DNA of 64,000 nt from Bryopsis sp. KO-2023 (Eukaryota; Chlorophyta; Ulvophyceae; Bryopsidales; Bryopsidaceae), in NCBI GenBank assembly GCA_030272585.1, contig BSYQ01000003.1, forward strand, positions 124,001-188,000, given 5' to 3'. The position numbers and the translations under genes are program-made. This document shows positions 3,402-52,937 of the stretch, piece after piece; the stretch's first letter is position 1; each line of letters starts with the position of its first letter. The notes beneath the pieces were generated by a model that was given only the letters and a program-made list of their open reading frames with translations, searched no databases and was not told the DNA's origin.

Positions 3402-6327
3402 AAATGAGTGCGACAACGTAGCACCTGCCGAAATTAAAAAGGTGGTAGAAAAACACCGTGGTGTGTTTCCTCGTGATTTACCCCCAGGGATTCCTCCGAA
3501 GAGAAAAGGTCATGAGTTTAAGATAGACCTGGAGGACCCAACACCTATCCATCGTCCAATATACAAGCTTTCACCAGCAGAGCTGGATGAAGTGAAAGCA
3601 CAAGTGGACTACCTTCTGGAACAGAAGAAAATCAAACCATCCGAGTCCCCTTGGGGCGCGCCAATCCTATTTGTACCGAAAAAGGATGGAGGCTTAAGGA
3701 TGTGTGTGGATTACAGGTGGATTAATAAGGTGACGGTGAAAAACCGATATCCTTTACCCCTGCCAGAAGAATTGATGGATAGAGTGTTTAAAGCCAAAGT
3801 GTTCTCAAAGTTAGATCTGCGATCAGGCTACTGGCAATTTCCAGTAAGGCCATCTGATACAGATAAAACAGCGTTCCGAACGAGATACGGTCACTTTGAG
3901 TTTTTGGTAGCGCCTTTTGGGCTAACCAATTGTCCAGCGCAATTCCAAACTCTAGTGCAAGACCTACTCGCAGAGTTTTTAGATGATTTTGTTGTTGTCT
4001 TTATTGATGACATACTCATCTTCTCTGAAAACATGGAACAGCATGCCGAACACTTAGAGAAAGTCTTGTCGCGACTAGCAGAATACCAGCTCTTTGCTAA
4101 GGCAAGTAAAAGTGAGCTGGCTGTCGCAACAGTAGACTATCTTGGCTACCGCATTAGCGGAAGTGGGTTAGAACCACAGGAACAAAAAGTGAAGGCAGTG
4201 AAGGAGTGGAAGGAACTACAGAGTGTTAGCGATGTACGTAGTTTCCTTGGAATGGTTTCATACTACAGGAAATTCATTCCCCAGTTTGCACATGTTGCTG
4301 GACCACTCCATGACTTAGTGAAAAAAGACCATCCCTGGAGATGGGGACAGGTTGAGCGTGGCGCATTCAATGAACTGAAAAAGCGTCTAAGTCAAGCTCC
4401 CGTCCTTATTTTTCCAGATGCGTCACTGCCTTACACTGTGATCACTGATGCGTCGAATGAGGCCATCGGTGCCGTGTTAACACAAAATCACGGAGAGGGG
4501 CTACAGCCAATAGCTTATCTCTCACGTAGATTCAAGCCTGCTGAGCTTAACTATGCACCATACGACAAAGAGTTGTGTGCAATATGTTATGCGATGGTGC
4601 AGTGGAGACATTATCTAGAAGGTTGTGCGGGTGGAGTAACAGTGTTCACTGACCACCAACCTCTGACGCATATTCTGTCGCAGAGGAACCTTTCTAGAAC
4701 CCAAGCAAGATGGCTTGAGGCGGGGTACCTGACTTCGATCAACCCCAAGATCTCCTACATAAAAGGCAAGGCTAATGTGTTAGCAGATGCTCTCTCCCGC
4801 AGTGTTCCTAAGCCCGTGGAAACTGCGATGAACATTTCCACTTGGCAAGTGCATCAAGCAAGCCAAGACGAGTGGAAACAAGCCCTCCAAGCTGATAACT
4901 CCTTGGTGAAGATATTGCGGAAGCTTGAGAGTGGTGAGGAAGTTGAGGGATATTTCCTCAGAGAGGGAATACTTTGGACGGTCCCAAAAAGAGGATTAGT
5001 CGAGAAAGTGGTGGTTCCTAAAGGCCAGCGCAATAAGATCATGAAGGAGTGCCATGAGACACCTTCAGCAGGCCATACAGGACCAGCGCGAACGGGAGAA
5101 ATCCTAGCGCGGCGATATTGGTGGAAAGGGTGGATGAATGAGTTGAAGGCGTTTGTACGCGAATGCCCTGTGTGCCAGCAAATAAAGGCTGACACACAGA
5201 AGCCTATGGGCTTACTTCAACCCTTGCCAATACCTGAGCGGAAGTGGGAGCAGATTACCACTGACTTGGTGACAGATCTACCAGCATCCAATGGGTTTAG
5301 TGCTGTAGCTGTCTTTGTCGATAGACTTACCAAGTTTGTGCATTTCGCCCCATGTACTAAAGAGATTACCGCTGCAGGATACGCCCAACTTTTTATCGAA
5401 CATGTTTACCGCAACCATGGCCTACCTAAAGTGATTGTGTCTGATAGAGACCCTCGCTTTACCAGTAAATTCTGGCAGACGCTTTTTAAAGCTCTGGGTA
5501 CAGAGATTCGTATGAGTACAGCTTACCACCCTCAGACGGATGGGCAGAGTGAGGTTACCATACGTACTCTGGAAAATTTTCTAAGGCCATATGCTGAGAG
5601 GTATCCCCATAAGTGGGTTGAGTATTTACCTACAGCAGAGTTTGCAGCAAACAATGCAGTGAATGCGAGTACAGGGTACGCACCTGCATATTTGATGTAT
5701 GGGTACCATCCAGAAACACCAAACATTGGTGGGACGGCAACGCAATTTCAAGTGGAAGCAATTAAGACTATGGTAGCACGGATGGCACAGGACTTAGATA
5801 CCGCAAAAGCATATTACTCTAGAGCACAACACAGAATGTGTGTAAGTGCAAACAAGAAGAGGAAAGATATTGCTTTTGAGAAAGGGGATAAAGTCCTGAT
5901 AAAAAGCCGTTTTATTCCGTTGGCTGCTTTGAACAAAGTGAGTCCCAAACTGCGCCGTCGATTTGTGGGTCCCTTTGAAATTGTGGAGAAAATATCAAAG
6001 GTGGCTTACAGAGTTCAACTTCCGGAAACATGGCTCATTCACCCAGTGTTTCATGTTTCTAAGTTCAAGCGTTATCACGCCTCGAGTGATAACAGCAGGC
6101 AAATACAACCTCCAGAAGGAGAGTTGATTGGTAGCGAAGTAGAGTATGAGGTCGAAAATATCCTAAGGGCTAGAGGTAAACGCAATCGCGAATACCTAGT
6201 GCTGTGGAAAGGATACGATCTACTTGATGCTACTTGGGAACCTGAAGCTAATCTGGTTAACGCACCAGATATACTTCGCGCATTTAAAGAGAAAGAAAGA
6301 AAAGAGTTGCAGAAAGGAAGAGAATAG
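3402..6327 (+). CDS. pol: Pol polyprotein of A1 (5'-truncated): RT, RNase H, integrase, chromodomain
   Basis: Copies element RNA into DNA and integrates it. The frame is open from 3403; the protease is lost with the missing 5' part. Reverse transcriptase carries FIDD at 3999-4011. RNase H begins near TDASNEAIGAV. Integrase has an HHCC zinc module (HETPSAGH, then CPVC), then catalytic Asp in TTDLVTD, Asp in VSDRD and Glu in TDGQSE. The C-terminal chromodomain includes YLVLWKGYD and TWEPE, typical of chromoviruses that target chromatin marks. No stop or frameshift is seen in the part present. There is no natural start: the protein should be made as a frameshift fusion with the missing gag. Confidence 0.93.
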
Positions 6328-6778
6328 GGAAACAGAGTGTTTGATGGCTAAGGTGGAACTCCTTATAGCAAGGGGGCGCGAAAAAGGATACCTTAGAAAA
6401 ACTCTGTCAACTTCCAAACCAACTCTTTAACTTTAATGCGTTAGGTGCCTAAGTTATTTGGCTGGCGCAGTAAGTGTAGCTTCAGTAGTACTTTAGAAAC
6501 CGGGCAAACGATGTCACATTCGAGATAGTGTGGTTGTTCCGAGAAAACCCCTATCAAGTGACGTGTTGAGGTGGTCTTGACGAGACTCCAACCGAGCGAA
6601 ACGTTGGTGTCTCACCCCAATAACCCAACGAGGAAAGTGTACGAGTCACCCAGCCTTATAAGCGCAGCCCTCGAACCATTTTGCCCTAGTGTTTGTGTGA
6701 ACGGAGCGAGCTCCTGAGTGAAAAAGAGTCTAAAGACGCACAAAACCGTTGTTTATTTCTTTCTTTCCGACGAACATA
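6328..6778 (+). other. Spacer between pol and ORF3 of A1
   Basis: 451 nt with no long ORF. It includes a TATA-like CCTTATAAGC near 6655, about 120 nt before the ORF3 ATG. This could mean an internal promoter, or a splice acceptor for ORF3 could lie here. Neither is proven by sequence. The C spacer is similar in size. Confidence 0.4.
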
Positions 6779-8593
6779 ATGGCTGCCGACACACCCGCCG
6801 CAATTATTGCGAGGTTGGAAGCGGAGGTAGCTCAAAAAGAAGAGGAGCTGCAGCACTTTGTTACGACCGCAGAGGAAGTGCTGCAGAACAATGAGGCCTT
6901 AACCCGGCAGCTCTCAGAGTTGAGTGACCGGACGAAAGCAGCTGAGGCTGCGAAGGAGGCAGCGGAGAAAGCCAAGGAAAAGGCGGAGGCGGAAAAGAAA
7001 GAAGCGGAGGACAAGACTAAGGTCTTGGAAGAAAAATTGGAAGCCATGAAGCTGAAAAAGCAAAGGTTCCAATCTCACATGATGGCTAACCATCGTGAGA
7101 ACGACCTCCGCAAACAAGCTCTCGGGGGAATAGTGGATCGATTTACCGCGGTAGAGGAAACGCTGCAGCAAGCTGTAGCAACCGCGTGGAATGCAGCAGC
7201 CAACAACCTTAAGAAGGAATTGGCAGAACAAGAGCTGCAGATCGATTTGCTGGGAGAGTCCCTCAGAGACGGCTCTGAAAAATTATCAGTGCAGAGCGAA
7301 ACAACGGACAAGATGCTGCGTTTGAACCCGGCGGTGCCAGCACCACGGGTGCGGGAAGAACTGGATCGCCAAGTCCAAGTTCTGTTGTCAAACGCAACAC
7401 TTGATCTGGAACCGTCCAAGGACGGTGATGCGGGAGGCTCAAGCAAGGGCAAGGGGAAAGGGAAAAACAAACGCCCAAGCTCGCCGTGTAGGGATGAAGA
7501 TCCACACGGAAAGAGAAGGCGAGAGGACGGTGACGATGAAGGTGGTGAGCCACCGAGGAATCGTAGGCCTGGAGATGCAGCAAGAGCCAACTTGTTACTC
7601 AAGTTAAAGGCTGCCGCAGTAAAAACTCCAGCCCCCTCACAACCAGCACCAACAGTTCAGACTCCCGGGGATGAGGCTACCGCAATAGCACCGGGGGAGG
7701 ACCTCTTCGACATGAGAGAGGAGGAGCTTTTGGACTTGGATTTCAACGAAGAACTTGACTTCGGTAATCCACCTCCTAGGCTCGAGGGTCCTAGTTCTGA
7801 ACTGGAGGACGGGGAAATAAGGAATGATGAAGGGCCAAGCCAGGTGACAGAGGTTCAGCGTGCGGTCCATCCACCGTTGGAGTTAGCTCCAACAGAAGCA
7901 GCACTTCGGGCTTTCCGAGAAAAGGTTAAGCTCAGAAGGTTAAAGGCGGCTGCTCAGGACAAAGTGGATGCTGCACCCAGCGAAGTGAACCTGTCACGGG
8001 AGGATATCGAGGAGGCTTGCAACCCCATCACTGCGTCAGAGAAATGGCCGAAGGTCCAATATACTAACCCCAGGGACCGAGCCTTGCAAAATTACCGCGG
8101 CAACCGGCACTTTCACGAGTTGCCCATGTGCATTTGGTGCGGGAGAAGCCCAATGCAAGCAAGTGCTCAGCGGCTGACGCAGAAGAAGTATTCCGTCCTT
8201 CCTTGTGGGTATCACCTTGTGTGTGATGCTCACTGGTTGGCATACTCGATGCTGGGGCGCATCGTTACCGCGGTACAAAAAGTCGCCGAAGTGGACAACA
8301 AGTCCATTGCCACCGTCTCCCCATTCTCTCTACCTGCCCATATGATGAAGCTGACACGCTCGACGTTCGAAGAAATCCCTCCATTCCCAGCTGAGCACGA
8401 GAAGTTGCCACACTGCCATATGTGTGTGAAGCGGCAGCTTAAGGTGTCCGGCATCACAAGGGATCTGCCATTCCTTAAGTCCAAGAGGGTGGCTGCCGCA
8501 TTTGATCCCTGTGTCCGGTATCGTGCAGTGCAGCAGGCGCATGCGCAGGAGCAGCGTGCTATACAGCAGGCGCAAGCGCAGGAACAGCGTTAA
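6779..8593 (+). CDS. ORF3 of A1: coiled-coil protein with RING-like Cys/His module
   Basis: 604 residues from ATG 6779 (MAADTPAAIIARLEAEV). The frame is open to a TTG at 6749, but the ATG fits better. Residues about 5-180 form a Glu/Lys/Ala coiled coil. A basic KGKGKGKNKR segment and an acidic middle follow. Residues 451-549 hold C451-x2-C454-x21-C476-x2-H479-x2-C482-x2-H485-W, then C546-x2-C549. The C-terminus ends in repeated Gln/Ala units (IQQAQAQEQR). The same Cys/His order occurs in C ORF3 (18675-20450). Eight ligands in this order fit a two-zinc cross-brace such as a RING variant, though the last gap is long. There is no signal peptide or membrane segment, so it is not an envelope protein. 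Function unknown. Confidence 0.8.
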   Translation: MAADTPAAIIARLEAEVAQKEEELQHFVTTAEEVLQNNEALTRQLSELSDRTKAAEAAKEAAEKAKEKAEAEKKEAEDKTKVLEEKLEAMKLKKQRFQSHMMANHRENDLRKQALGGIVDRFTAVEETLQQAVATAWNAAANNLKKELAEQELQIDLLGESLRDGSEKLSVQSETTDKMLRLNPAVPAPRVREELDRQVQVLLSNATLDLEPSKDGDAGGSSKGKGKGKNKRPSSPCRDEDPHGKRRREDGDDEGGEPPRNRRPGDAARANLLLKLKAAAVKTPAPSQPAPTVQTPGDEATAIAPGEDLFDMREEELLDLDFNEELDFGNPPPRLEGPSSELEDGEIRNDEGPSQVTEVQRAVHPPLELAPTEAALRAFREKVKLRRLKAAAQDKVDAAPSEVNLSREDIEEACNPITASEKWPKVQYTNPRDRALQNYRGNRHFHELPMCIWCGRSPMQASAQRLTQKKYSVLPCGYHLVCDAHWLAYSMLGRIVTAVQKVAEVDNKSIATVSPFSLPAHMMKLTRSTFEEIPPFPAEHEKLPHCHMCVKRQLKVSGITRDLPFLKSKRVAAAFDPCVRYRAVQQAHAQEQRAIQQAQAQEQR

Positions 8594-8787
8594 GGAGGAG
8601 GGAAAAGGAGTTATCGTCGACCAAGTGTGTGCGTGCAGCAGCTGTCAGAGCCGTCAGAGCAAGAGACAGGTCCAAGACAGTTGGGTGTGGGTATGGGAGT
8701 GGGTTAGTTTTGTGTTTGTGTTTTTGTGTTTTGTTTTTCTTTGTGTTTCGGTGTGCGTGGGCGCCCACTTTTTGCGGGGGGGGCGTA
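8594..8787 (+). other. 3' untranslated region and polypurine tract of A1
   Basis: GT-rich stretch ending in GGGGGGGGCGTA (8776-8787) directly before the LTR start. That is the position of the plus-strand primer in LTR elements. C has an equivalent G-run at 20716-20727. Confidence 0.7.
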
Positions 8788-9218
8788 TGTTAGTATTTTC
8801 TAGTACTTAGCGCTGTACGAGGTAGTCTGGGATAGAGTCTAGGGTGGCTGACGCATGTGGGTTCACGAGTAAGACAGATTAGACCCAGAGTTTGGGCATG
8901 CGTCAGCGTACTACACTTAGGGGTACTTAAGAGGCCCACTCGTTGTTTTGACACTCTTATTCTTTTGTAAGAACTCGGGATTCGTGGGATTGGTGTGTTC
9001 CCGCTTGTGTGTGTGTTTGTGTGTGTGTGTGTGTCTAAGTGTTTGCCTGACGCAATCACTTATCCAACCAAGTGCTCTAGTAGCGTTCACAACCGCGCTA
9101 GCTAGAGAGTTGTCTAAACCAACAAACCCCACAAGTATACTTGCGTTAGCCAGCAAGTTATCACGAATCCAACCAACACAGCCAACCACTATTGCGCCAC
9201 CCACAAGCTTCACTATCA
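8788..9218 (+). repeat. 3' LTR of element A1 (431 bp)
   Basis: Begins TGTTAGTATTTTC and ends TTCACTATCA. An inverted near-copy lies at 14974-15411 as the 5' LTR of A2. It contains a GT microsatellite near 9005-9035 whose length differs between the copies. The boundary is exact on both sides: polypurine tract on the left, A2 pol codons on the right. Confidence 0.92.
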
Positions 9219-11702
9219 AACACTGCGGGAGAGAGCATCTGCTAACACATTAGCCTTGCCTTTTATGTAGGAGATCTTGGGGTTGATCGAAGTTAGGTAC
9301 CCCGCCTCAAGCCATCTTGCTTGGGTTCTAGAAAGGTTCCTCTGCGATAGAATATGCGTCAGAGGTTGGTGGTCAGTGAACACTGTTACTCCACCCGCAC
9401 AACCTTCTAGATAATGCCTCCATTGCACCATCGCATAACATATTGCACACAACTCTTTGTCGTATGGTGCATAGTTAAGCTCAGCAGGCTTGAATCTACG
9501 TGAGAGATAAGCTATTGGCTGTAGCCCCTCTCCGTGATCCTGTGTTAACACGGCACCGATGGCCTCATTCGACGCATCAGTGATCACAGTGTAAGGCAGT
9601 GACGCATCTGGAAAAATAAGGACGGGAGCTTGACTTAGACGCTTTTTCAGTTCATTGAATGCGCCACGCTCAACCTGTCCCCATCTCCAGGGATGGTCTT
9701 TTTTCACTAAGTCATGGAGTGGTCCAGCAACATGTGCAAACTGGGGAATGAATTTCCTGTAGTATGAAACCATTCCAAGGAAACTACGTACATCGCTAAC
9801 ACTCTGTAGTTCCTTCCACTCCTTCACTGCCTTCACTTTTTGTTCCTGTGGTTCTAACCCACTTCCGCTAATGCGGTAGCCAAGATAGTCTACTGTTGCG
9901 ACAGCCAGCTCACTTTTACTTGCCTTAGCAAAGAGCTGGTATTCTGCTAGTCGCGACAAGACTTTCTCTAAGTGTTCGGCATGCTGTTCCATGTTTTCAG
10001 AAAAGATGAGTATGTCATCAATAAAGACAACAACAAAATCATCTAAGAACTCTGCGAGTAGGTCTTGCACTAGAGTTTGGAATTGCGCTGGACAATTGGT
10101 TAGCCCAAAAGGCGCTACCAAAAACTCAAAGTGACCGTATCTCGTTCGGAACGCTGTTTTATCTGTATCAGATGGCCTTACTGGAAATTGCCAGTAGCCT
10201 GATCGCAGATCTAACTTTGAGAACACTTTGGCTTTAAACACTCTATCCATCAATTCTTCTGGCAGGGGTAAAGGATATCGGTTTTTCACCGTCACCTTAT
10301 TAATCCACCTGTAATCCACACACATCCTTAAGCCTCCATCCTTTTTCGGTACAAATAGGATTGGCGCGCCCCAAGGGGACTCGGATGGTTTGATTTTCTT
10401 CTGTTCCAGAAGGTAGTCCACTTGTGCTTTCACTTCATCCAGCTCTGCTGGTGAAAGCTTGTATATTGGACGATGGATAGGTGTTGGGTCCTCCAGGTCT
10501 ATCTTAAACTCATGACCTTTTCTCTTCGGAGGAATCCCTGGGGGTAAATCACGAGGAAACACACCACGGTGTTTTTCTACCACTTTTTTAATTTCGGCAG
10601 GTGTGTCTGAACGAATAAGTTTGCCAATCTCATCCTCAGTGTTGAATGGCTGTGTTCGCTCTATTGCGTCAGGCAATTCATGTTGGCCTAAAGCTTTATC
10701 TTCAGACTCTTGCACTACAACCATGAATGCTGTCTCTGTTTTGAGATGACGCATCATTCTCTTAGCAGAACACTCAGTCACTGGCACTTTCTGCAGTATC
10801 GACTGTACTTTTCGTTCAGGTTCAATACTCTCTTGGGTTGGATGACGCAACGGGAGATGAAACACTTGGCTGTTTTTACAAACTGAAATCTCATTTTGCT
10901 GAAAGTCTATGCGGGGGTTTTCTTTCTGCAACCAAGGCATGCCCAATATTAGGTCATAACCAAGGTCTGGAAACAGATCCGCTTTCATTTTGCATTTCAG
11001 CCCTCCTATCTTAACTCGGAGGTTGTTACAGCTGCCAGCCAATTCTTTGATATCTCCGTTTGCCAACATCGCTCTCTTTGAGCTTGGTGTAATCGACAAC
11101 CCAAGATCACGCGCTACCTTATCATTGATATAGTTTGCTGTACTTCCACAATCAATGAATGCATAAAGGTCCGTGGTCTTGATCCGTGCTTTTACTTCGT
11201 ACCCTCTCACAGGCACTTCTTGAATTTTTAACAGAGGGCATGTGTCACCCTTGGTTGACGAAGTTGATCGAACTTCTGACACATTAACTCGCTCTGTGGT
11301 AGACTGCTGGGTTGTTTCTGACCCACTATCGTCTACGTCTGCAGGCAGGGACTCCTGTAGACTACTCTGCGACTCCAATGAGCCCACAGATTCACTAACA
11401 GAGGGAAGAGATGCAGAGGACGCATGAGGCGCATCCATCTCATCCGGTGTGCTTTCCTTCTGTTCATTTTGCCAATCGCAGTTGTCATGTGCCGATTGGG
11501 TAGATGTGGAGAGTGTCTCTGTTCTCTCTTCACGCGGTGTACTAGTCCGCTCCTCAGGTTTTCCGCTGTGAGTACAAACCTTTTTCGAGGCACCTACTTT
11601 TGATCTTAGCTTCCTACGCCGCCTACGAACTCTATTTCGCTTACGACGTTTGCGTCGGCCAGGCTCAGACGAAGCAGTTTCCTGCCTGGCGGTCAGTTTA
11701 AC
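9216..11702 (-). CDS. pol: Pol polyprotein of A2 (3'-truncated by insertion of A1): protease, RT, RNase H
   Basis: The frame lies -1 to gag and opens at the frameshift heptamer 11702-11696; the first ATG in frame is at 11438. A basic Arg/Lys-rich start is followed by a Ser-rich linker. The aspartic protease has DCGS in FIDCGSTANYIND. Reverse transcriptase carries FIDDIL and RNase H ends at ADALSRSV. A stop codon is then supplied by the A1 LTR (9216-9218). Integrase and chromodomain are absent from this fragment but present in A1. The part shared with A1 differs at very few residues. The remaining frame is intact. Confidence 0.92.
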   Translation of the reverse strand, partial: VKLTARQETASSEPGRRKRRKRNRVRRRRRKLRSKVGASKKVCTHSGKPEERTSTPREERTETLSTSTQSAHDNCDWQNEQKESTPDEMDAPHASSASLPSVSESVGSLESQSSLQESLPADVDDSGSETTQQSTTERVNVSEVRSTSSTKGDTCPLLKIQEVPVRGYEVKARIKTTDLYAFIDCGSTANYINDKVARDLGLSITPSSKRAMLANGDIKELAGSCNNLRVKIGGLKCKMKADLFPDLGYDLILGMPWLQKENPRIDFQQNEISVCKNSQVFHLPLRHPTQESIEPERKVQSILQKVPVTECSAKRMMRHLKTETAFMVVVQESEDKALGQHELPDAIERTQPFNTEDEIGKLIRSDTPAEIKKVVEKHRGVFPRDLPPGIPPKRKGHEFKIDLEDPTPIHRPIYKLSPAELDEVKAQVDYLLEQKKIKPSESPWGAPILFVPKKDGGLRMCVDYRWINKVTVKNRYPLPLPEELMDRVFKAKVFSKLDLRSGYWQFPVRPSDTDKTAFRTRYGHFEFLVAPFGLTNCPAQFQTLVQDLLAEFLDDFVVVFIDDILIFSENMEQHAEHLEKVLSRLAEYQLFAKASKSELAVATVDYLGYRISGSGLEPQEQKVKAVKEWKELQSVSDVRSFLGMVSYYRKFIPQFAHVAGPLHDLVKKDHPWRWGQVERGAFNELKKRLSQAPVLIFPDASLPYTVITDASNEAIGAVLTQDHGEGLQPIAYLSRRFKPAELNYAPYDKELCAICYAMVQWRHYLEGCAGGVTVFTDHQPLTHILSQRNLSRTQARWLEAGYLTSINPKISYIKGKANVLADALSRSV

Positions 11703-13213
11703 ATTTTTTTTACATCAGGGAGGTTTTTCACCTCCTCTAATCTAGGACATTGCCTCACGGGATGACCCTTCTTTCCACAAAGGTAACAATTATATCCCCC
11801 TCCCCCCTGGGGGTTCTGTCTTCCCTGATTGGCTTGTCCTCTTCCACGGTTACCACCACCGCGTCCACGTCCACCACCACCACGTCCTCCTCCTCTGCCT
11901 TGTTGCTGTTGCTGCTGCTGTACTCCTGCGGCAGCTTGTGGTGGTGCTTGGGCTGGTGGTGTAGGGTTCTGCTGCTGCTGACCCTGATTCTGGCCTTTTT
12001 TCTTTCTTCCACCACGCCAGACTCCTTTCTTTTTCTGATTGGTCTGCCCTCCTTGGCCTTGTGTTCCAACTCCAAGGGCTTCCAATCGTTCGGCGGATAT
12101 GATGGCAGCCTCGACATCTCGAGGTACCGTTGCTGTGACTAACTTCTGAACTTCACTTTTAAGTCCATCCACGAAGAGCAAATACTGGTGATCCTCTTCG
12201 AGGTCTGGAATCCTCAAGACTAACCGCTGAAACTCTTTTACAAACTGTTTCACAGTTCCAGTCTGCTTGAGTTTGTGGAGGTCACGCCACGCTTCATCTC
12301 GATCACTAGAGAATTCGAAAGCAGTAGCTAAGCCATCCATGAAGTCCATCCAGTCACGGAAGGGTGGTCTTTCACCTCGGTGAATTTTCAACTCTTGCAT
12401 CGTTAACCAATCCGAGGCAGCCCCATAAAGGTTAGTGGCCATCACAGATTGCCACTGTGCTTCATGCACTCCGCAGGTTCTTAAGTACCGCGTCATGAGC
12501 ACTTGCCATTTACGGGCTTTTGGTTCGCCACTTCCGTTAAATGCACGAGGCATTTGCAACTTGACGGTGCTAGGCAACCACTGTCCTTGCCTAGGAGGTC
12601 CTGGCCCTGCTGGTCCAGCGCCACCTCCACCTCCACCTCCTCCAGGAGGTCCACCGGGAGGTCCACCGCCTCCACCATCTCCACCACCGCCACCACCCCC
12701 ACCGCCATCAGGCGCACCTGGAATGCGGGAAGGTGGGCGGTTTCGTCTGTCGCGGTAATCATCACCGCCATCATCATCTGGATCATCATCACCAGGGTCT
12801 CCAAAATTTCCACGCATACGCGGAACTCGACTGGGTCCACCAGTAGACTCATACGAACCAAGTGCAGCAAAGGGGTTGTTTTCTACCCTTGCTCCCAAAG
12901 CACTTAACCCAAGTCCCAATCTCCCAGTACGTGTGGGGAGCTGCATGGGTTCTTTTCCTTTCTCTTCTCTGACCTGTGCCTTAGCACGCTCAAGGTCAAT
13001 TTGGTATAACACCTCTGCTGAGGAGAGAACTCTTGGGTCAGTTCGTGTGGGTCTACGTGATCCATCGGCAGAGTCGGGTTCTGAGATGCGTACTCCAGGC
13101 TGAGCTCTTGTACTTGGAGGTATCAGTTGAGGGAATGTGAAATCAGCGTCTGGTGCGCTATCCATTGCAGTGCATGGTGGTGCTTCTGCAGCAACGGTTT
13201 CACCCTCCTCGAC
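11693..13213 (-). CDS. gag: Gag of A2, C-terminal part (downstream of the insertion)
   Basis: About 506 residues in frame with the N-terminal part at 13688-14826 once the insertion and one duplication copy are discounted. It has a Pro/Gly-rich linker and a retrotransposon gag core (from STVKLQMPRAF to AERLEALGV). A Gln/Gly/Arg-rich tail follows, then a zinc knuckle CYLCGKKGHPVRQC (C-x2-C-x4-H-x4-C) that binds nucleic acid. It stops at 11693. An ATG at 13234 inside the inserted DNA could start this part alone, but that is probably accidental. Confidence 0.9.
   Translation of the reverse strand, partial: VEEGETVAAEAPPCTAMDSAPDADFTFPQLIPPSTRAQPGVRISEPDSADGSRRPTRTDPRVLSSAEVLYQIDLERAKAQVREEKGKEPMQLPTRTGRLGLGLSALGARVENNPFAALGSYESTGGPSRVPRMRGNFGDPGDDDPDDDGGDDYRDRRNRPPSRIPGAPDGGGGGGGGGDGGGGGPPGGPPGGGGGGGGAGPAGPGPPRQGQWLPSTVKLQMPRAFNGSGEPKARKWQVLMTRYLRTCGVHEAQWQSVMATNLYGAASDWLTMQELKIHRGERPPFRDWMDFMDGLATAFEFSSDRDEAWRDLHKLKQTGTVKQFVKEFQRLVLRIPDLEEDHQYLLFVDGLKSEVQKLVTATVPRDVEAAIISAERLEALGVGTQGQGGQTNQKKKGVWRGGRKKKGQNQGQQQQNPTPPAQAPPQAAAGVQQQQQQQGRGGGRGGGGRGRGGGNRGRGQANQGRQNPQGGGGYNCYLCGKKGHPVRQCPRLEEVKNLPDVKKMLN
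11696..11702 (-). promoter_or_regulatory. Candidate -1 frameshift heptamer GTTAAAC at the gag stop of A2
   Basis: Gag ends ATG-TTA-AAC-TGA. GTTAAAC therefore lies as G-TTA-AAC in the gag frame, directly before the stop, and slipping by -1 enters the pol frame. The pol frame has its own TGA only a few codons upstream, so the overlap is about 20 nt and the switch must happen here. An A8 run just upstream is a second possible slip site. Confidence 0.65.
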
Positions 13214-13687
13214 CAGAGATAGGACTTGGGCCAAATTTTTGGTCCGACTCCGGTCCGGTCCGGTTACGGTCGGGTTACGGTCACCGTACTACGGCCGTAA
13301 CTCCGTACCGTAACCGGAGTAATATGTTGTTTTTACGGTACGGAACAGGTACGGTATAACTACGGTAGGCCCTAAATCACCGTGAAGTAGCGTGGTTCAG
13401 TGCTAAAGTGTTAGGCTGCAGTCAGTAGGGTCGCGGGTTCGAATCCCCCTGGGTTCCTTTGGAATCGCGGGACCCTGCGGGGGTCACTTTCTACGGTTTA
13501 CGGTTGTTACGGCCGTTACGGTCGTTACGGTCGTTACGGTCCGGTACGGAGCGGTACGGAGTGGTACGGTGCTACGGTTACGGCCGTAAAAGTACGATTT
13601 TCTGACGAAAATTGTACTCCGGTTACGGTCCGGTTACGGTGGTTACGGTCCGGTTACGGTGACCGTAACCGTAAAGTCCTATCTCTG
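13214..13687. mobile_element. hAT-like non-autonomous element (MITE) inserted in A2 gag
   Basis: 474 bp with perfect 14-bp terminal inverted repeats CAGAGATAGGACTT (13214-13227 and the complement at 13674-13687). It is flanked by 8-bp direct duplications TCCTCGAC (13206-13213 and 13688-13695). Eight-base duplications and CAG-starting ends fit the hAT superfamily. The inside is packed with short repeats of GGTTACGGTC on both strands and carries no transposase. Removing it with one duplication copy restores the gag frame, which confirms the borders. Confidence 0.9.
13384..13457 (+). other. tRNA-like segment inside the hAT-like element
   Basis: Contains GCGGGTTCGAATCCCC, a perfect B-box (GGTTCGAATCC), and upstream GTGGTTCAGTGCT resembling an A-box at tRNA-like spacing. 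I could not fold a full cloverleaf. It is more likely a tRNA-derived pol III promoter remnant than a working tRNA gene. Confidence 0.35.
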
Positions 13688-14826
13688 TCCTCGACCTGTA
13701 CGGCTGGTGGAGCTGGAATTGTTGAAGTTCCTGCCCCAACCATTCCTACCGCGAAGCTCTGGTCTAGTGGCGGCCATGATGCAGCCAACTGCTTTACTGA
13801 TTTCTTCGGCAGCGGCATCCCAAAGGCTGAGTCCTCAGGCTCAGGAGAATCAACTTCCCCTTCACGTCCCGGTGATACTGCACGAGCATCACTTCCACTT
13901 TGGGCACTCTGACTTCCGCCACTCACATCTTCCATGCTTCGTTCCAGGCCAGATAACCTTAAGGCAACCACATCAGCTGCATCTTGCTGCTGATCCCAGG
14001 TTTTGGATGCCTTTTTCTCCAAGGCAATCAAATCTTTTTGAATTGCTACTCTTGAGCTCTGCAAACGCTTCACCTCAGCACCTTGTTTGTTCAAGGACTC
14101 CCGAAACAATTCTAGAGTCCGTTCAACTTTTTCGTTGGAATCCGCAACAGTGCCTAATAAGCCTTCAATTCTCCGCCCTTGTACAAGGGATAGCTCGGAG
14201 AGTTGTTTTAACTGAAGTGCTGATGCTTCAGTTGCTTCTTTTAGGTCAGCAAAACGAGAGTCCGCTAGGACATCTGCGGCATCCATTCTCCTCGTTATTG
14301 CATCCACAGAAGCTTTGATTTCGGCTCTTTCTTTTCTATGTTCGATATCCTGGCGCAATAGCCTTTGCTCATATCGACCATGTTGAGCCACCACTGTATC
14401 CAGCTTCTCCTGTTGCGACACCACCGCATGCTGTGTGGCCTCAACCTGTTGCGCATGCTGGTGCTGTGTTTCCAGCGCCTGCCCGATCACCTCTGATGCA
14501 CCAGCCAGTTGGTTCGACACAGAGGCTTCAGTATGGGCGAGCCTCTGCCCCAGTGTCTGGTCAACTTGCTGCAGGTGACCCCTTAACCCGTGGGTTAAAT
14601 CGTCCACACGGTCATGGACCGCATCCACATCCTCTCTTAAGGCTTCCGCATCAGCTCCCATGTCTATGTCGACAGCTGCTTGCTGGACATTGTGGATGTT
14701 CTGGACGTTTATTTGTTGGTACACCACATTGGGTGCGTCAGGCAATTCCTCGTCGAACTCAGGTTCAATCCCTGGCTCTTCAACTTGAGGCTCGCGCACT
14801 TCCAATGCGTGTTCACGGTCAGCCAT
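13688..14826 (-). CDS. gag: Gag of A2, N-terminal part (upstream of the insertion)
   Basis: Starts at ATG 14826 (MADREHALEVREPQVEEPG). About 379 native residues precede the insertion; with inserted DNA the frame reads to a stop at 13654. Acidic first 60 residues are followed by a long coiled coil rich in Gln, Ala and Glu (roughly 75-310). B-family Gags have the same plan of acidic start, coiled coil, linker, core and knuckle. The insertion would remove the gag core and knuckle from the product, so this copy is disabled unless the insertion excises. Confidence 0.88.
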
Positions 14827-14973
14827 GGTCTCTCAGCCACTATTTGGGAGTACTCAACAACCACGGTTGGAGTTTCTCTACCAAACAAACAAACAAACAA
14901 ATGTGTTTGTTACACCACGTTCACAAGTTTCGATCTCAAGAACTTAAAGTTCTTGCCTCGCTCCGAAACCAAT
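14827..14973 (-). other. 5' leader and primer-binding site of A2
   Basis: The primer site TGGTTTCGGAGC is at 14971-14960, 2 nt from the LTR. The rest is a short leader including a CAAA/TTTG tandem near 14881-14901. The gag ATG follows at 14826. Confidence 0.8.
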
Positions 14974-15157
14974 TGATAGTGAAGCTTGTGGGTGGCGCAA
15001 TAGTGGTTGGCTGTGTTGGTTGGATTCGTGATAACTTGCTGGCTAACGCAAGTATACTTGTGGGGTTTGTTGGTTTAGACAACTCTCTAGCTAGCGCGGT
15101 TGTGAACGCTACTAGAGCACTTGGTTGGATAAGTGATTGCGTCAGGCAAACACTTAG

Positions 15158-15188
<31 letters not shown>

Positions 15189-15411
15189 AGCGGGAACACA
15201 CCAATCCCACGAATCCCGAGTTCTTACAAAAGAATAAGATAAGTGTCAAAACAACGAGTGGGCCGCTTAAGTACCCCTAAGTGTAGTACGCTGACGCATG
15301 CCCCAAACTCTGGGTCTAATCTGTCTTACTCGTGAACCCACATGCGTCAGCCACCCTAGACTCTATCCCAGACTACCTCGTACAGCGCTAAAGTACTAGA
15401 AAATACTAACA
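14974..15411 (-). repeat. 5' LTR of element A2 (438 bp)
   Basis: Inverted near-copy of the A1 LTR at 8788-9218, with the same TGTTAG/CTATCA ends. Small differences include the CA repeat length and a few substitutions. Its outer end abuts C pol codons at 15412. Confidence 0.92.
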
Positions 15412-18055
15412 GAATGTGTGTGGATTACCGTTGGATCAACAAATTCACGGTAAAGAATAGGTATCCACTCCCTCTTCCTGAGGAGTTAATGGACCGTCTC
15501 GCCAGAGCGAAGATCTATACGAAGATCGACCTCCGCTTAGGCTACTGGCAGTTTCCCGTTCGACCCAAGGATACTCCCAAGACGGCATTCCGGACGAGAT
15601 ACGGACATTTCGAGTTTCTGCCAACTGCCCAGCCCAGTTCCAGACCATGGTTCAGGATTTGCTGGGGGAGTTCCTTGATGAGTTTGTAGTGGTGTTTATC
15701 GACGACATTCTGGTCTTTTCCAACTCGGTGGAAGAGCACGTCGAGCACCTAAAACTGGTCTTTGAACGATTGCGGAAACATAAGTTATACGCAAAAGCCA
15801 GTAAGTGCGAAGTAGGGGTAGCAGAGACGGACTACCTGGGGTATCATTTGTCGGAAAAAGGCCTTCAACCGATGCAGGATAAGGTTAAGGCTATTCAACA
15901 ATGGAAGGAGTTAACTTCGGTCACTGATGTGCGAAGTTTCCTGGGAATGGTATCTTACTATCGTAAGTTCATTCCTGAGTTCGCTAGGATTGCGAGTCCC
16001 TTGACAGATCTAACCAAGAAGGATACTGTCTGGGAATGGGGGCTGAACCAACGCAATGCCTATAACGAACTTAAGGATCGGATTAGCCGCGCACCGATCT
16101 TACTCCTTCCTGATCCGGCTAAGGAGTACACCGTAATAACGGATGCATCTGGAACTGCATATGGAGCGGTTCTTACCCAGGATCACGGGAAAGGTTTGCA
16201 ACCAATTGCATACCTTTCCAGACGATTAAAACCAGCTGAAACGCGATACTCCGCATATGAGCGGGAGCTGGGGGCAATAGCATATGCTTTAGCCCAGTGG
16301 CGACACTACCTTGAGGGATGCGATGGGGGTGTGAAGGTGTTGACGGACCACAAACCGATCACCCACTTCATGAACCAGAGCACGTTGTCGCGGACCCAAA
16401 CCCGGTGGTTAAACTCAGGGTTTTTCCAATCCATAGGTCCAAAAATCGTCTATATCCAGGGGAAAGCCAATGTATTGGCTGATGCGTTATCCCGGAGCCT
16501 TCCTGGTCCGCCAGACCAGCTCAATAACCTCTCCACTTGGGAAGTGGCAGAGAAGGAGGCGTGGAAAGAGGCTTTGAGAAATGATGAACAACTCAAGCCT
16601 ATCTTTGAAAGGATGGAACGAGGGGTTTCTCCGCAATACAAGCTGGACGACGGGTTCTTGTATTATACCAAGACAGACCCAGGTCCTAGTTTGCTTGTGG
16701 TCCCTGCTTCTTTCCAGAAACGGATTCTGGAAGAGCATCACGACGTTCCCAGTGCAGGTCATGTTGGAGCAGACCGCATGACCGAAGTACTTACCCGCAG
16801 TTACTGGTGGAAAGGCGTTGGGTTAGCCATAAAGGCATACGTGAAAACGTGCCCAACTTGTCAACTAAACAAATCGGACTTGCAAAGACAGAAAGGTCTT
16901 TTGCAGCCGTTGCCTATCCCAGACCAGAAATGGGAACAGATCACGACGGACTTGGTTACCGACCTACCGTCTTCCCATGGCTTCACAGCAATCGCTGTCT
17001 TTGTAGACCGATTGACGAAGTATGCGAGGTTCGTACCCTGTAACAAAACTATCACGGCGCCAGAATACGCAAAGCTGTTCGTGGAGAACATATACAAACA
17101 CTACGGGCTGCCTAAAATCATAGTTTCGGATCGGGATCCAAGGTTCACAAGTTTGTTCTGGACCTCCCTTTTCAAACTTTTAGGTACCCAGCTCCGGATG
17201 AGCACTGCATACCATCCTCAAACGGATGGGCAGTCGGAAGTCACCATCCGGGTGCTGGAGGATTTCCTGCGTCCGTATGTGGAACGGTACCCAGACCGTT
17301 GGGTGGATTATTTGCCGACCGCGGAATTTGCCGCAAATAATTCACGGAATGTCTCCACAGGCTACGCGCCAGCCCATCTTCTGTATGGCCAGAACATGGG
17401 GCAGATAGTTGTTGCCAGGAAGGGAGTTCGGACGGGCGATGAATCGGAAATGGCGGCTGAGATGGGACGTCGAATGGACGACCAAATGCGAAACGCTAAG
17501 GCGAAATACGCAGAGGCACAGAACCGCATGTGCACCTCAGCAAACAAACGTCGAAGGAAAGTGGATTTTCAGGTTGGCGATGAAGTGCTGGTACAAAGCA
17601 AGTATATTCCCCTTGCTTCACTTCAGAAAATTCCACCGAAAATCCGCCGGCGATTTGTTGGACCTTTCCGGGTGGCTAGCCGAATTGGGGCTGTCGCCTA
17701 CCGTCTTGACCTTCCCGATCACTGGAAAATCCACCCAACTTTCCATGTGTCGAAATTGAAGGCTTACTCTCGGCTTGATGACGATCAGCGAGAGATAGAC
17801 GCTCCAGAGGGGGAGCTAGTGGATGGAACCATCGAATTCGAGGTCGAGCGCATCCTCAGAGATCGGGGCACTACTCGCAAGGAGTACCTGATCCTTTGGA
17901 AGGGCTACGATTTGATGGAATCCACCTGGGAGCCAGAAAGCCACCTGGCCAATGCCCAGGACTTGCTTAAGGAGTACTTAGCCAACAAACCGGAGAATAA
18001 ACAAGTGACCCAGTCTAAGAAAAAGACTAGGGCCCAACGCAGAACTCGAACCTAA
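15412..18055 (+). pseudogene. pol: Pol of element C, 5'-truncated and frameshifted in RT
   Basis: Begins at the RT core and continues through RNase H, integrase (HHCC, DDE) and chromodomain (YLILWKGYD, STWEPE). Compared with B2 pol, exactly 19 nt are missing after 15620. This removes the VCPFGM region of RT and shifts the frame: the first frame stops at 15689 and the second runs from about 15621 to 18055. FIDDIL lies just downstream in the second frame. All later domains are uninterrupted, so the deletion may be fairly recent. Protease and the RT start are off-window. Confidence 0.9.
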
Positions 18056-18674
18056 ACAGGGATCATTACCACTCTGTTCACGCTCGACTTAATACTATCC
18101 TTCCAGCTGGGGGAAAATATTAAGCCGAGAAAGTCGATTTGGAACGTTATCCAGATGGGATACCAAAAAGACTTAGGAAAAGAGCACCAAGTAGAACTCC
18201 CGGAAAAGCCTAGGGAAAGTTTCCATCTTTTCCTAGGGAAAGTTTCCATCTTTTCCGGCGAACGGGTTGCTATCTTTTCCCGTGACAGAACTGTGGACGG
18301 TTCGCAGGACGGGCTAGGGGTCAGTTTTCTTTCCGGGGAGGTTTACCTAACGCACAACTCACACGCTCATAGCGACTGACAACAGGTGATGGGGACATTG
18401 GATCAAGTGATGGGTTAATGTCCGACCTGGAGGTCACGTGATTGCGCCGCAGGTGGAACTGAGTTGACATAAGCAAGTTAGGGTAAAATCAAATAGGCAC
18501 AAACCCGTGTGGTGACGGCGACCTCCATAGAGTGTCACGTTACCGAGGTACGTTAGCTAATACGCCTAGCGTATCTTAAAGCGGACTTGCGATCATTTTG
18601 TCCTGGTTATTCTCGGCGCGCATACGGAAAAGTCGGAGACTAGTCGGAGAACTAAGCGCAGCCAGAAAAAGAGA
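18056..18674 (+). other. Spacer between pol and ORF3 of C
   Basis: 619 nt without a convincing ORF. It contains a short tandem duplication of CCTAGGGAAAGTTTCCATC (18210-18255). It occupies the same place as the A1 spacer and may carry the ORF3 promoter or splice acceptor; I could not identify either. Confidence 0.4.
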
Positions 18675-20450
18675 ATGCCAAAGCACAGCCCGATCATGTG
18701 GCGCAGTGGTGATAAGGCGGTTGAAGGAAAGGAGTCTAGTGGAAAACAACTGGGTGGAAGCGGAAAAACAAAAGGCAGTGGCGGCGAGAAAAGCGGAAAG
18801 GAACAGAGTGGAAGTCTCGCCGACGCTCGCCCACCCAGAGGGGAACCCAAACCACTTATCACACCACCTAAGGCGAAGCTCATGAAAACTCTCCCACCTC
18901 CTTCGGTGCTTTCGAAACTTCGGAACTTCGAAACATCGCTGCTGAAAGGAACCTCAAAGATCGTGATCCGCCCACCGACAGAGTTGCCGGAAAAACTGCC
19001 GGAAAAACCTAGTTCCAGAACAGGAAAAACACTCGACCGAGACGCCGACCCAGCTACTCTCCAAGCTAGGTGTCAACGGTTACAAGACGATGTGTTGGAA
19101 CTCCGTGCAGAACGCGACGCACAACGCGCGCGGGCGGATCAGGCAGAGAAGCACTTGAGAAAGTTCGAGGGTGCAGCACAACGACTCTGCGATCAAGTAA
19201 CGAAGCTTGAACACGATCTGGAAATCGCCCGGCAGGCGAGAGGAACCGCTGAGCAGGAGGTGAAACAGCTTCAAAAGGAGCTCGATTCTGCGAACCAGAC
19301 GCAGAAAAAGCTGAAAGCGCAGCTGACGAAACAGCAGCCGCACCTGACGTCCACAGACGAAAGGTCGGCCTGGCAAACGGCTGTGTACTCGTCTGAGGCA
19401 CAGTCCGGGTTGATGAGCCGGTTGCTCCACAGCGTTCCCGCACGTCTTGGGGACTACGTGGAAAACCTTTGTCGGGCGACGATGGACGATATCCTTGAAC
19501 AGGGTGCTGGAGCTGCTGCTGCGATCAGAGACGGAGAGGAGCCTGTCTACTACGGCAAAGGGAATGTTCCGGTGAACCACCGGCTAGCCGGGTATGACTA
19601 TACGCAGGTGGACAGAACGCTGGAGAGAATCAGAAGTCGTGCACCGGGGCACTTTGAAATTCCCGACGTCGCCGACGATATGATCTCAGAGCCACAACCA
19701 AGGAGAATCCGCGATCTGACCGGGGAACAGACCGGTGGAAAGACCGACGAAAAGTCGGCGCCCAAGAAAAGGAAGGAGAGAGAGGAAGAGGAGGCGCTCG
19801 CCGACATGTCAAAGAGATTCAAGGACAGGCGTGGGGAAAAGCCGCCGATCTGTTTGTGGTGCTATTCGCCGCCGGCTCTGGCGGATAGCTACGTGATCAC
19901 CACATGCACGAGCCACACGGTGTGCCGAACCCACTGGAATCTCATGATAATCCTCGTGCGCTTATACGGGGTGTGGCAGGAACAGCGAATAGATCCGCCA
20001 CAGGTTCAGCTGAAGGACCTTCATTTGGACATGCGCGAGCCAGACTTCCAGCCACTCCTTCAGGCTCCACCCACGACCCAGACTCTAACCGAGTGCTATC
20101 AGTGCTTGAGAAGGGACATGGGCTTTCCGAAAGGCCTTGCCCTGAAGCGCTTGGGTCCGTTGGTGAAAAGGTGGGCGGAGGAGTATGAGAAGCAGGAAAA
20201 AGAGAGAACACCCGAACCAGAAACAAAAGGAGAACAAGACCCAAAACAGGACGAAGGAAAAAGTCCTTCCGTGTCCAGCAGGAGTCCATCCTCGGAGCCC
20301 TCGTCTTTGGGACCTCTTCCTCCACCTTTGGATGAGGATTTCCCTCCTTTGGATGTGGATGAGGACGAGCCTCCGATCGACTTGGTGGCAGAACCAGTCG
20401 ATGAACCAGCTGCGGAACCAGCTGAGGCACCAGCCATGGGTGCTGACTGA
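18675..20450 (+). CDS. ORF3 of C: coiled-coil protein with RING-like Cys/His module
   Basis: 591 residues from ATG 18675. Basic Lys/Ser/Gly-rich first 60 residues are followed by a coiled coil at about 150-230. Residues 393-477 hold C393-x2-C396-x14-C411-x2-H414-x2-C417-x2-H420-W, then C474-x2-C477. This is the same order, the same inner spacing and the same Trp as ORF3 of A1. The N-terminal sequences hardly resemble each other, so the Cys/His block is the conserved part. An acidic Pro/Ser-rich tail ends in Glu-Pro-Ala repeats. No signal peptide, membrane helix or known enzyme motif is seen. A zinc-binding adaptor or ubiquitin-ligase-like role is possible but unproven. Confidence 0.8.
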   Translation: MPKHSPIMWRSGDKAVEGKESSGKQLGGSGKTKGSGGEKSGKEQSGSLADARPPRGEPKPLITPPKAKLMKTLPPPSVLSKLRNFETSLLKGTSKIVIRPPTELPEKLPEKPSSRTGKTLDRDADPATLQARCQRLQDDVLELRAERDAQRARADQAEKHLRKFEGAAQRLCDQVTKLEHDLEIARQARGTAEQEVKQLQKELDSANQTQKKLKAQLTKQQPHLTSTDERSAWQTAVYSSEAQSGLMSRLLHSVPARLGDYVENLCRATMDDILEQGAGAAAAIRDGEEPVYYGKGNVPVNHRLAGYDYTQVDRTLERIRSRAPGHFEIPDVADDMISEPQPRRIRDLTGEQTGGKTDEKSAPKKRKEREEEEALADMSKRFKDRRGEKPPICLWCYSPPALADSYVITTCTSHTVCRTHWNLMIILVRLYGVWQEQRIDPPQVQLKDLHLDMREPDFQPLLQAPPTTQTLTECYQCLRRDMGFPKGLALKRLGPLVKRWAEEYEKQEKERTPEPETKGEQDPKQDEGKSPSVSSRSPSSEPSSLGPLPPPLDEDFPPLDVDEDEPPIDLVAEPVDEPAAEPAEAPAMGAD

Positions 20451-20733: not shown

Positions 20734-20836
20734 TGATAGTAGCACTCGGGTTTAGGGTGATGTTGTAGTACAATTGGGAGTACGACAGGGTTTATAGGGC
20801 AGGGGGCCCTCCTGTAAAAATTAATCTTCCCAGTGA

Positions 20837-20869: not shown

Positions 20870-20901
20870 CTTGTGTCTCGGGGTCCTAGACCCCCTTATC
20901 A
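20734..20901 (+). repeat. 3' LTR of element C (168 bp)
   Basis: Begins TGATAGTAGCAC and ends CCCCCTTATCA, so the ends are inverted (TGATA/TATCA). It contains a CT/GT microsatellite near 20839-20869. Only one copy is in the window; the right border is set by B2 pol codons resuming at 20902. Confidence 0.7.
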
Positions 20902-45670: not shown

Positions 45671-46039
45671 TGTGACAGTTCCAAAGTGCGAGAGGTGGGA
45701 TTTGATCCCGGGACCTCTCAGTATCAAGTATAGTAACGGTCGCACTAGCGAACCAGTGGGCGACGGTGGTTACAGAGGTCAGATCGGTTATGTAGCCGTC
45801 TGACGAGTGACGTAATCGGGATGAGTGATACAGAGTGTGATGGTGTGATGTGAGTGACTGTATCTGGACGGTGTAGTCCAGGGTCACGTGAGTGAGAGTT
45901 ACAGCCAGTTACGGTTGTGACCGTTGACGGGATTCGAACCCGGGTCAACGGTTGGCCGGTCTTAAGGCTCTAGGCCTTTGGGCCAGTTGTTCACGTTTTG
46001 TAATATTCCTTAAGTCTTTCCATTCCCCGCGTCCTTACA
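45671..46039 (+). repeat. 5' LTR of element E (369 bp)
   Basis: TGTGACAG to GTCCTTACA. It carries two antisense tRNA-like modules: a hairpin AGAGGTGGGATTTGATCCC with its return arm (45691-45718) and one with a perfect B-box (45921-45995). Confidence 0.95.
45921..45995 (-). other. tRNA-like module in the E LTR, antisense, with perfect B-box
   Basis: The minus strand has GGGTTCGAATCCC inside an 8-bp hairpin (CCGTTGAC/GTCAACGG). Upstream lie TGGCCCAAAGG, near the A-box of a type-II tRNA, and CTTAAGA, the anticodon loop of tRNA-Leu(UAA). The cloverleaf is not complete. Repeated in the 3' LTR at about 52819-52893. Confidence 0.45.
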
Positions 46040-46041
46040 AG

Positions 46042-46053
46042 TGGTTTCGGAGC
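46042..46053 (+). other. Primer-binding site of E (TGGTTTCGGAGC)
   Basis: 2 nt after the LTR, identical to the sites in A2, B1, B2 and F. A 78-nt leader follows to the gag ATG at 46132. Confidence 0.9.
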
Positions 46054-46131
46054 GAAGTGTACAGGGCTACACCCAAACGATCGGGCAGCCTGTGATATTG
46101 GGTTCATCGTAAAGACCGGGGAAGAACCAGG

Positions 46132-52247: not shown

Positions 52248-52568
52248 GAGGACTTCAAGAGCTGAATAGTGAGTAAATGAGAGATATCTCTGAAGAGACA
52301 TGGGAATGAGAGAAGGATTTCAGTCTATGATTGTTGGGGGTTCAGGGGAGATGGTGTTAGTGCTGAGACCAGATCAGCTGTTTCTTTTTCTACTGTCTTT
52401 GGGATGGTCTTTCAGATGGGGCTTTTCCTTTTTGCTTTCTGGAGGGTCTTTGGGATTTTTCCTTTTAGCTTATGGGGGAGTGCTCTATTCTTTTCTTGCT
52501 GGAGTCTGTATGTGCTTATTTGGTGACCTTAGGTCTGGGGTCCAGATTTCTAAGGTCAGGGGGAGTCT
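52248..52568 (+). other. 3' region and polypurine tract of E
   Basis: 321 nt, T-rich then ending in CAGGGGGAGTCT (52557-52568) at the LTR. A hydrophobic frame starting at 52300 runs into the LTR and is not considered a gene. Confidence 0.7.
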
Positions 52569-52937
52569 TGTGACAGTTCCAAAGTGCGAGAGGTGGGATT
52601 TGATCCCGGGACCTCTCAGTATCAAGTATAGTAACGGTCGCACTAGCGAACCAGTGGGCGACGGTGGTTACAGAGGTCAGATCGGTTATGTAGCCGTCTG
52701 ACGAGTGACGTAATCGGGATGAGTGATACAGAGTGTGATGGTGTGATGTGAGTGACTGTATCTGGACGGTGTAGTCCAGGGTCACGTGAGTGAGAGTTAC
52801 AGCCAGTTACGGTTGTGACCGTTGACGGGATTCGAACCCGGGTCAACGGTTGGCCGGTCTTAAGGCTCTAGGCCTTTGGGCCAGTTGTTCACGTTTTGTA
52901 ATATTCCTTAAGTCTTTCCATTCCCCGCGTCCTTACA
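52569..52937 (+). repeat. 3' LTR of element E (369 bp)
   Basis: By eye identical to 45671-46039, followed by the duplication GTCGG (52938-52942). Confidence 0.95.

Follow-up and report, generated by a model that had tools for sequence, protein, structure and literature searches.

A conserved Cys/His-module protein as the third gene of a Ty3/gypsy retrotransposon clade in the green alga Bryopsis sp. KO-2023

What is coded by the long open reading frames (ORFs) that lie between pol and the 3′ long terminal repeat (LTR) in two retrotransposons of Bryopsis sp. KO-2023, and are they genes of these elements at all? The stretch of DNA that raises this question, hereafter the window, spans 64,000 nucleotides (nt) of contig C3 (BSYQ01000003.1, positions 124001-188000) in the genome searched here (91.1 Mb, 28 contigs). 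Bryopsis belongs to the Chlorophyta (Ulvophyceae, Bryopsidales), and 107 matches in this genome to the light-harvesting family PF00504 are in keeping with an algal host. An earlier note on the window had read the two frames, here called ORF3, as genes of two chromoviruses coding for coiled-coil proteins with a RING-like Cys/His module kept under selection. Our analysis shows ORF3 to be a genuine third gene of one Ty3/gypsy clade, chromodomain-bearing where checked. The features on which this rests, in the two elements A1 and C, are (window coordinates; aa, amino acids):

3442..6327, plus strand: pol of A1, 5′-truncated and without protease, with reverse transcriptase (RT), RNase H, integrase, SH3-like domain and chromodomain
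6779..8593, plus strand: ORF3 of A1, 604 aa, open throughout
6779..7288, plus strand: N-terminal part of A1 ORF3, coiled-coil-like in composition, about residues 1-170
8129..8425, plus strand: Cys/His module of A1, residues 451-549
8788..9219, plus strand: 3′ LTR of A1, matching the LTR of a second family A copy, A2, at 14973-15411
15647..18055, plus strand: pol of C, its frame starting inside RT, with RNase H, integrase and chromodomain (Pfam Chromo 4.1e-12)
18675..20450, plus strand: ORF3 of C, 591 aa, open throughout
19053..19370, plus strand: coiled-coil-like part of C ORF3, residues 127-232, from sub-cut-off Pfam matches and composition
19764..19775, plus strand: basic cluster KKRK, nuclear-localisation-like, residues 364-367 of C ORF3
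19851..20105, plus strand: Cys/His module of C, residues 393-477

The frames are uninterrupted over 604 and 591 codons, and the placement of both ORF3s between pol and the 3′ LTR is upheld. So is the proposal that the two proteins have diverged except in one block: the sole significant BLASTP stretch between them is the Cys/His block (22% identity over 113 columns, expect value (E) 7e-9). The pols of A and C, unlike the ORF3s, are 59% identical over 785 aa; hence, ORF3 outside the block has changed much faster than pol. The Cys/His pattern recurs in none of 100,000 shuffles of the A1 protein and none of 100,000 of the C protein, and within the window only these two ORF3s match it (six frames, stop-to-stop frames of at least 100 aa). 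Once the families D86 and D98, described below, are added, the shared signature reads C-x2-C-x(12-21)-C-x2-H-x-V-C-x2-H-W-x(52-59)-C-x2-C. Thus, the ligand order given in the earlier note stands, and its gap of 14-21 between the second and third ligands widens to 12-21; the gap between the sixth and seventh is 53-60 across the four families. An alignment of families A, C, D86 and D98, with one sequence each, has 17 invariant columns that include all eight Cys/His positions (C22, C25, C47, H50, C53, H56, C117 and C120 in the A stretch), and the only invariant basic residue besides His is one Arg. The module is therefore kept ligand for ligand across four multi-copy families despite their far-diverged ORF3s.

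Copies of ORF3 are under purifying selection, with the lowest ratio in the module. We compared nonsynonymous with synonymous variation per site (pN/pS) in alignments of 22 of the 30 fetched A loci and 24 of the 30 fetched C loci, 8 and 6 loci having been dropped for partial or rearranged flanks. In family A the ratio is 0.123 for ORF3 (bootstrap interval 0.080-0.175), 0.031 for the module (residues 446-560) and 0.045 for the pol end; in family C the corresponding values are 0.151 (0.118-0.189), 0.081 (residues 386-500) and 0.088. All 30 A loci, aligned ungapped, give 0.127 for ORF3 and 0.049 for the module. Permuting the variable sites among positions with the same base, in 40 trials for each family, yields ratios that average 0.716 in A (minimum 0.491) and 0.714 in C (minimum 0.528), and the shifted frames of ORF3 yield 1.8-2.5. 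The predicted maintenance of ORF3 by selection is thus borne out by ratios of 0.12-0.15, far from about 1. Some points weigh against this reading: in C the module (0.081) lies barely under residues 236-385 (0.085), the tail reaches 0.332, and the loci were chosen by their ORF3 protein score, which lowers pN and disfavours broken copies. The pol ends of the same loci, on which no choice was made, have ratios as low as that of ORF3 or lower. A chance open frame was considered and is ruled out by pN/pS, the many copies and the shuffles.

A further complication in family C, at odds with a simple story, is that ORF3 shows threefold the synonymous divergence of the pol end (0.114 against 0.034); this suggests that 3′ halves have been exchanged between C subfamilies, giving mosaic elements. 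In the alignment of 17175-20901 with the C loci L031-L060, ORF3 and the 3′ end are likewise about three times more variable than the pol end of the same copies.

How widely, then, is ORF3 distributed? The genome searches scored the best candidates only, so that all copy counts given here are lower bounds; even so, at least four Ty3/gypsy families (A, C, D86 and D98) carry an ORF3 with the module. In family A all 73 scored matches (the best 73 of 299 candidates) are full length with no stop inside, and the module is kept in all 30 fetched loci. The search with the C protein gave 76 matches from the best 74 of 385 candidates, fragments and inner stops among them; 27 of the 30 fetched loci keep the frame open through the module and end at residue 585-595, and three stop early. 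Since these frames end past the module, the TGA reported for many C loci is the normal end. The other two families came from a DNA search with a pol fragment, D, at 20886-23165: among the best 40 of 440 candidates, D98 matches are 97-100% identical to it and D86 matches 86-87%. One copy of D86 bears a further ORF downstream of pol, and a protein search with this ORF3 returned 88 matches (best 87 of 130 candidates scored). The D86 copies among them are mostly frames of 617-680 aa that run about 140 residues past the end of the truncated query copy; copy L062 breaks off after residue 483, but the module is present in a longer copy. A second set in the same search, at 35-37% identity and mostly in frames of 419-633 aa, is found, on contig C9 for example, downstream of a D98 pol, and there were also single matches of intermediate identity. 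Homology between the D86 and D98 ORF3s accordingly extends along most of the protein (35-37% identity, best E 2.5e-46), and the module is present in the C-terminal parts of one D86 copy and one D98 copy. The apparent common break point of the D98 copies corresponds to the end of the D element in the window, at its border with C.

A genome search with the D98 module gave 148 matches (150 of 153 candidates scored), 139 without and 9 with a stop. By identity, 21 stand at 94-100% (one being a 21-residue fragment), 57 at 46-57%, 63 at 31-35%, which are the C family including the window copy, and 7 are other weak or partial matches; the four weakest (E 9.7e-5 to 7.5e-3) were left without a family label. 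Among these matches we recognised no complete host gene that contains the module, in a search that could miss intron-split genes. One result sits poorly with a single module family: A is not listed by the D98 module query at E of 0.01 or less. Hence, family A belongs to the group only distantly, its link being the A-C match together with the pattern of ligands. The presence of ORF3 in other family members is thereby confirmed by many copies in all four families, and the count of two chromoviruses proves too low, while a chromodomain was indeed found in A1, C and D86.

The assignment to Ty3/gypsy follows from the pols. In A1, which is 5′-truncated so that RT through chromodomain is kept and gag and protease are missing, Pfam recognises RVT_1 (2.4e-33), RT_RNaseH, Integrase_H2C2, rve, SH3_Tf2-1 and Chromo (1.2e-12), and the best PDB match is Ty3 Gag-Pol (E 4.8e-145). 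The Ty3-type order RT, RNase H, Integrase_H2C2, rve and Chromo is shared by the pols of A1 and C, the latter element being also 5′-truncated in the window, with a pol frame that opens within RT; a D86 pol end has integrase and Chromo. These are chromodomain Ty3/gypsy elements by domain content, as read in the A1, C and D86 pols. Chromodomain Gypsy elements outside the chromoviruses have been reported (PMC5348765, PMC12477816). The other elements of the window that bear on the clade are:

9216..15411, minus strand: A2, an inverted, 3′-truncated family A copy without ORF3
14973-15411 (5′ LTR), 13654-14826 and 11693-13234 (gag frames) and 9216-11438 (start of pol), minus strand: parts of A2
20886..23165, minus strand: D pol fragment, of the clade of A and C, its own ORF3 outside the window
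34143-38780: pol E, in two frames, with a chromodomain
45671..52868, plus strand: element F, a chromodomain Ty3/gypsy element without ORF3, with pol ending at 52247 and a second LTR copy from at least 52569
47649-52247: pol F, with a chromodomain

The pols of A, C and D are 58-75% identical to one another and 36-46% identical to those of E and F, which are themselves 59% identical. Element F has no ORF3, as its pol stops at 52247 and the second copy of the LTR (from at least 52569) follows too closely to leave space for one. Downstream of pol E there is no frame of 200 aa before 45671, and the LTRs of E were not found; F alone is thus the clean negative.

Is the module a RING finger? In a RING finger the ligands follow the order C1-C2, C3-H4, C5-C6, C7-C8, with Cys usual at position 6 and a last gap of 4-48. 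This order and the first spacings fit in all four families; however, position 6 is His in each of them and the last gap is 53-60. No Pfam family scores above cut-off in the ORF3s or the modules, the lone RING-family match being PF14634 (zf-RING_5) to the first half of the C block (E 0.034; 14.6 bits, where the cut-off is 27.9); no RING family is listed by Pfam for the A, D86 and D98 stretches. In RING ubiquitin ligases the residues in contact with E2 enzymes include the proline of C7-P-x-C8, and this proline is absent from the last Cys pair in all four families (CHMC, CYQC, CQVC and CQIC). AlphaFold2 models of the module from two-row alignments have very low confidence (mean predicted local distance difference test, pLDDT, 47.2 and 43.1), with uninformative zinc sites. 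Sequential zinc sites of the LIM type fit the module spacings equally well. RING, LIM and related two-zinc folds all place eight Cys/His in four pairs, with spacings that the module overlaps in both RING and LIM; it departs from them by the His at position 6, the long last gap and the want of a profile above cut-off. Thus, of the note's suggestion of a RING-like, possibly ligase-like, protein, the likeness holds for ligand order and first spacings, and the His, the gap, the profile score and the missing proline count against it. We regard the module as RING-like, and its identity as a RING ligase as a minority view.

One alternative that these data bear on directly is that ORF3 is a RING ubiquitin ligase of TRIM-like layout, which would bring in an E2 enzyme so that proteins of the element, or host proteins of silencing or restriction, are tagged for degradation. 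The ligand order and most spacings, the sub-cut-off match of C to zf-RING_5, the sequence LPCGYHLVC in A, which is close to RING cores, and the oligomer-forming part within the same protein are all in keeping with it. Set against the His at position 6 and the last gap in all four families, the Cys pairs without the E2-contact proline, the lack of any Pfam match above cut-off, a PDB profile match no better than E 3.3 and the uninformative models, we consider such a ligase unlikely. An origin of the module from the integrase H2C2 finger was also entertained and rejected, as order and spacing differ on inspection.

Relatives of ORF3 or the module outside Bryopsis sp. KO-2023 were not found in protein, PDB, viral-contig or Pfam searches. 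PDB sequence searches with the A ORF3 and with a module profile gave no relative, the best profile match having E 3.3; searches of viral contigs (IMG/VR) with two alignments gave 4 and 5 stretches with the pattern, none of them confirmed. In a set of 5.8 billion proteins, where searches need shared five-residue words and restrict length, there was no relative among 883 candidates at E 0.01 or 172 at E 0.1, and then one among 1015. This one, BSKO_12060, is a deposited 194 aa gene model of Bryopsis sp. KO-2023 itself, a spliced-looking piece of an A ORF3 that omits the first Cys pair, and is likely an annotation artefact. The open PMC literature, in titles and abstract openings, yielded no extra ORF with a RING or zinc protein in chromovirus or gypsy elements. 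The note's remark that it knew of no described chromovirus protein of this layout therefore agrees with the databases and open PMC literature searched.

Could ORF3 instead be an envelope-like or particle-surface protein, the usual occupant of a third-gene position? It shares the sense strand and the place between pol and the 3′ LTR with the sense additional ORFs (aORFs) described for plants (PMC7264820). However, Kyte-Doolittle means over 19 residues peak at 1.01 for the A protein and 0.93 for the C protein, which does not indicate a membrane helix, and the first 20 residues of the A and C proteins are not hydrophobic, so that a signal-like N-terminus is not seen. The hydropathy scan thus agrees with the note in setting ORF3 apart from envelope proteins, and we consider this alternative very improbable. 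What the proteins do display outside the module is a coiled-coil-like part, called from composition and sub-cut-off Pfam matches: the N-terminal third of A ORF3 has E/K/A/Q/L/R fractions of 0.56-0.84 and P+G of 0.00-0.10 per 50 residues, and residues 127-232 of C ORF3 are charged, proline-poor and helix-favouring, with sub-cut-off coiled-coil matches, the best to Dynamitin (5.5e-5). The C (residue 364), D86 and D98 proteins have clusters of basic residues ahead of the module, and A has one in its linker (residue 245).

The means by which ORF3 might be expressed is hinted at by the spacer that precedes it:

6328..6778, plus strand: spacer between pol and ORF3 of A1, less variable among copies than synonymous sites
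6657..6662, plus strand: TATA-like hexamer TATAAG, candidate internal promoter 122 nt upstream of the A1 ORF3 ATG
18576..18581, plus strand: TATA-like hexamer TTAAAG, candidate internal promoter 99 nt upstream of the C ORF3 ATG

Nucleotide diversity (pi) in this spacer is 0.013 (A) and 0.016 (C), next to 0.034-0.114 at synonymous sites and 0.025 (A) and 0.037 (C) in the stretch after ORF3; in family A, pS is 0.040 at the pol end and 0.055 in ORF3 as against the spacer pi of 0.013 (22 of 30 loci). Upstream of the ORF3 ATG, TATAAG occurs at -122 in A, TTAAAG at -99 in C and TATAAA at -117 in D86. Several results tell against a promoter here: a scan for TATA or TTAAA has further matches, in A at -415 and in D86 at -20; the A spacer aligns with the C spacer no better than shuffled sequences do, of which 78 of 200 score at least as high (13 of 200 for the last 150 nt); and when the promoter zone is compared with the element's own LTR, 4 of 200 shuffles reach the score in A and 199 of 200 in C. 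Because the spacers fail the shuffle test and the scan has extra matches, an internal TATA-like promoter for ORF3 is a lead only. Expression of ORF3 by splicing is another possible route, as splicing is reported for barley Bagy2 (PMC7264820).

Taken together, we hold it somewhat probable that ORF3 is a nuclear, coiled-coil accessory protein made by the element, with a RING-like zinc module; its likeliest role, among those considered, is to counter the control that the host exerts over the element. In the mechanism that we propose, ORF3 would be translated from its own mRNA, most likely one that begins from the TATA-like sequence some 100-120 nt before the ATG, acting as an internal promoter. 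The N-terminal or central helical part, probably a coiled coil, would oligomerise the protein, a low-complexity linker with basic nuclear-localisation-like clusters would join it to the C-terminal module, and the eight ligands of the latter would probably bind two zinc ions. ORF3 might then enter nuclei and work as an oligomeric scaffold whose module binds a single conserved partner, more probably a protein of the host or of the element than a specific nucleic acid. The fast divergence of the rest of the protein would be as expected of a factor that fights host silencing or serves the RNA or integration complex of the element. A more specific version of this, which we put forward as a less likely possibility, is an anti-silencing factor, the product of an old third gene with its own internal promoter, that acts as an oligomer in the many nuclei of the coenocyte; by means of a two-zinc fold not described before it would disable a conserved host control protein, or redirect it, through ubiquitin transfer or capture.

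The combination of a coiled-coil-like part, basic stretches and a probable zinc module in one protein would also suit a nucleic-acid chaperone or packaging factor that binds the RNA or cDNA of the element, like a second nucleocapsid or a LINE ORF1. We find this quite unlikely, in that a CCHC-like knuckle is already present in the A2 gag (PF00098, a sub-cut-off match at E 0.024) and the module invariants hold a single basic residue other than His, the Arg. The conserved ligands provide defined residues to mutate, and the protein can be used for partner pull-down; the function of this third gene is thus open to direct testing. The module may be a new zinc fold.

Compared with known systems, ORF3 has the position, strand and presence in most family copies of known sense ORFs between pol and the 3′ LTR; the known ones have been called envelope-like and in some cases contain membrane segments, whereas ORF3 lacks these and has the conserved Cys/His module. 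It differs from known additional ORFs at this place by a module unmatched in the libraries searched. The antisense aORFs of Retand and Grande, with a TRP28 domain in Retand, lie on the opposite strand and have a different domain (PMC11963269). Extra genes of LTR retrotransposons mostly lack known domains, according to PMC9289625, where orchid Ty3/gypsy elements are described with an AlkBH5-like 2-ODD ORF, likewise acquired and kept through rounds of replication; that ORF is a recognisable captured plant enzyme, whereas no host or database source was found for ORF3. The Chronos elements of oomycetes have their chromodomain after integrase, as here, and carry an extra RNase H that Pfam does not find in A1 pol; an ORF3-like gene goes unmentioned in the portions of PMC5348765 available.

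Some rearranged copies of these families deserve record. At C3 81967-94016 three A ORF3 copies (L002, L004 and L006) lie on the same strand at a spacing of about 3.6 kb; between them the LTR is followed by pol from one internal point (window 5602), and they form a tandem array of A-family 3′ halves. At C2 1215272-1218454 a D98 pol breaks at query nt 1411 and is followed by ORF3 in one open frame of 1273 aa, possibly an in-frame fusion of pol and ORF3 by deletion. The alga has been kept in long-term culture (PMC12509668).

Elsewhere in the window, the D pol and the gag at 30152-33124, earlier labelled B (together 20886-33124, minus strand), look like one split element, and are probably a single element divided by an inserted repeat element; the latter has 300-nt identical ends at 23257 and 29415 and no frame of 200 aa. 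Element F has identical LTRs of at least 300 nt at both ends with gag and pol frames open, and on these grounds was probably inserted recently. Finally, the stretch 56161-59828, with direct repeats at 56091 and 60009, has frames that by eye are RT/RNase H-like and tyrosine-recombinase-like, and resembles a DIRS-type element on the same inspection.

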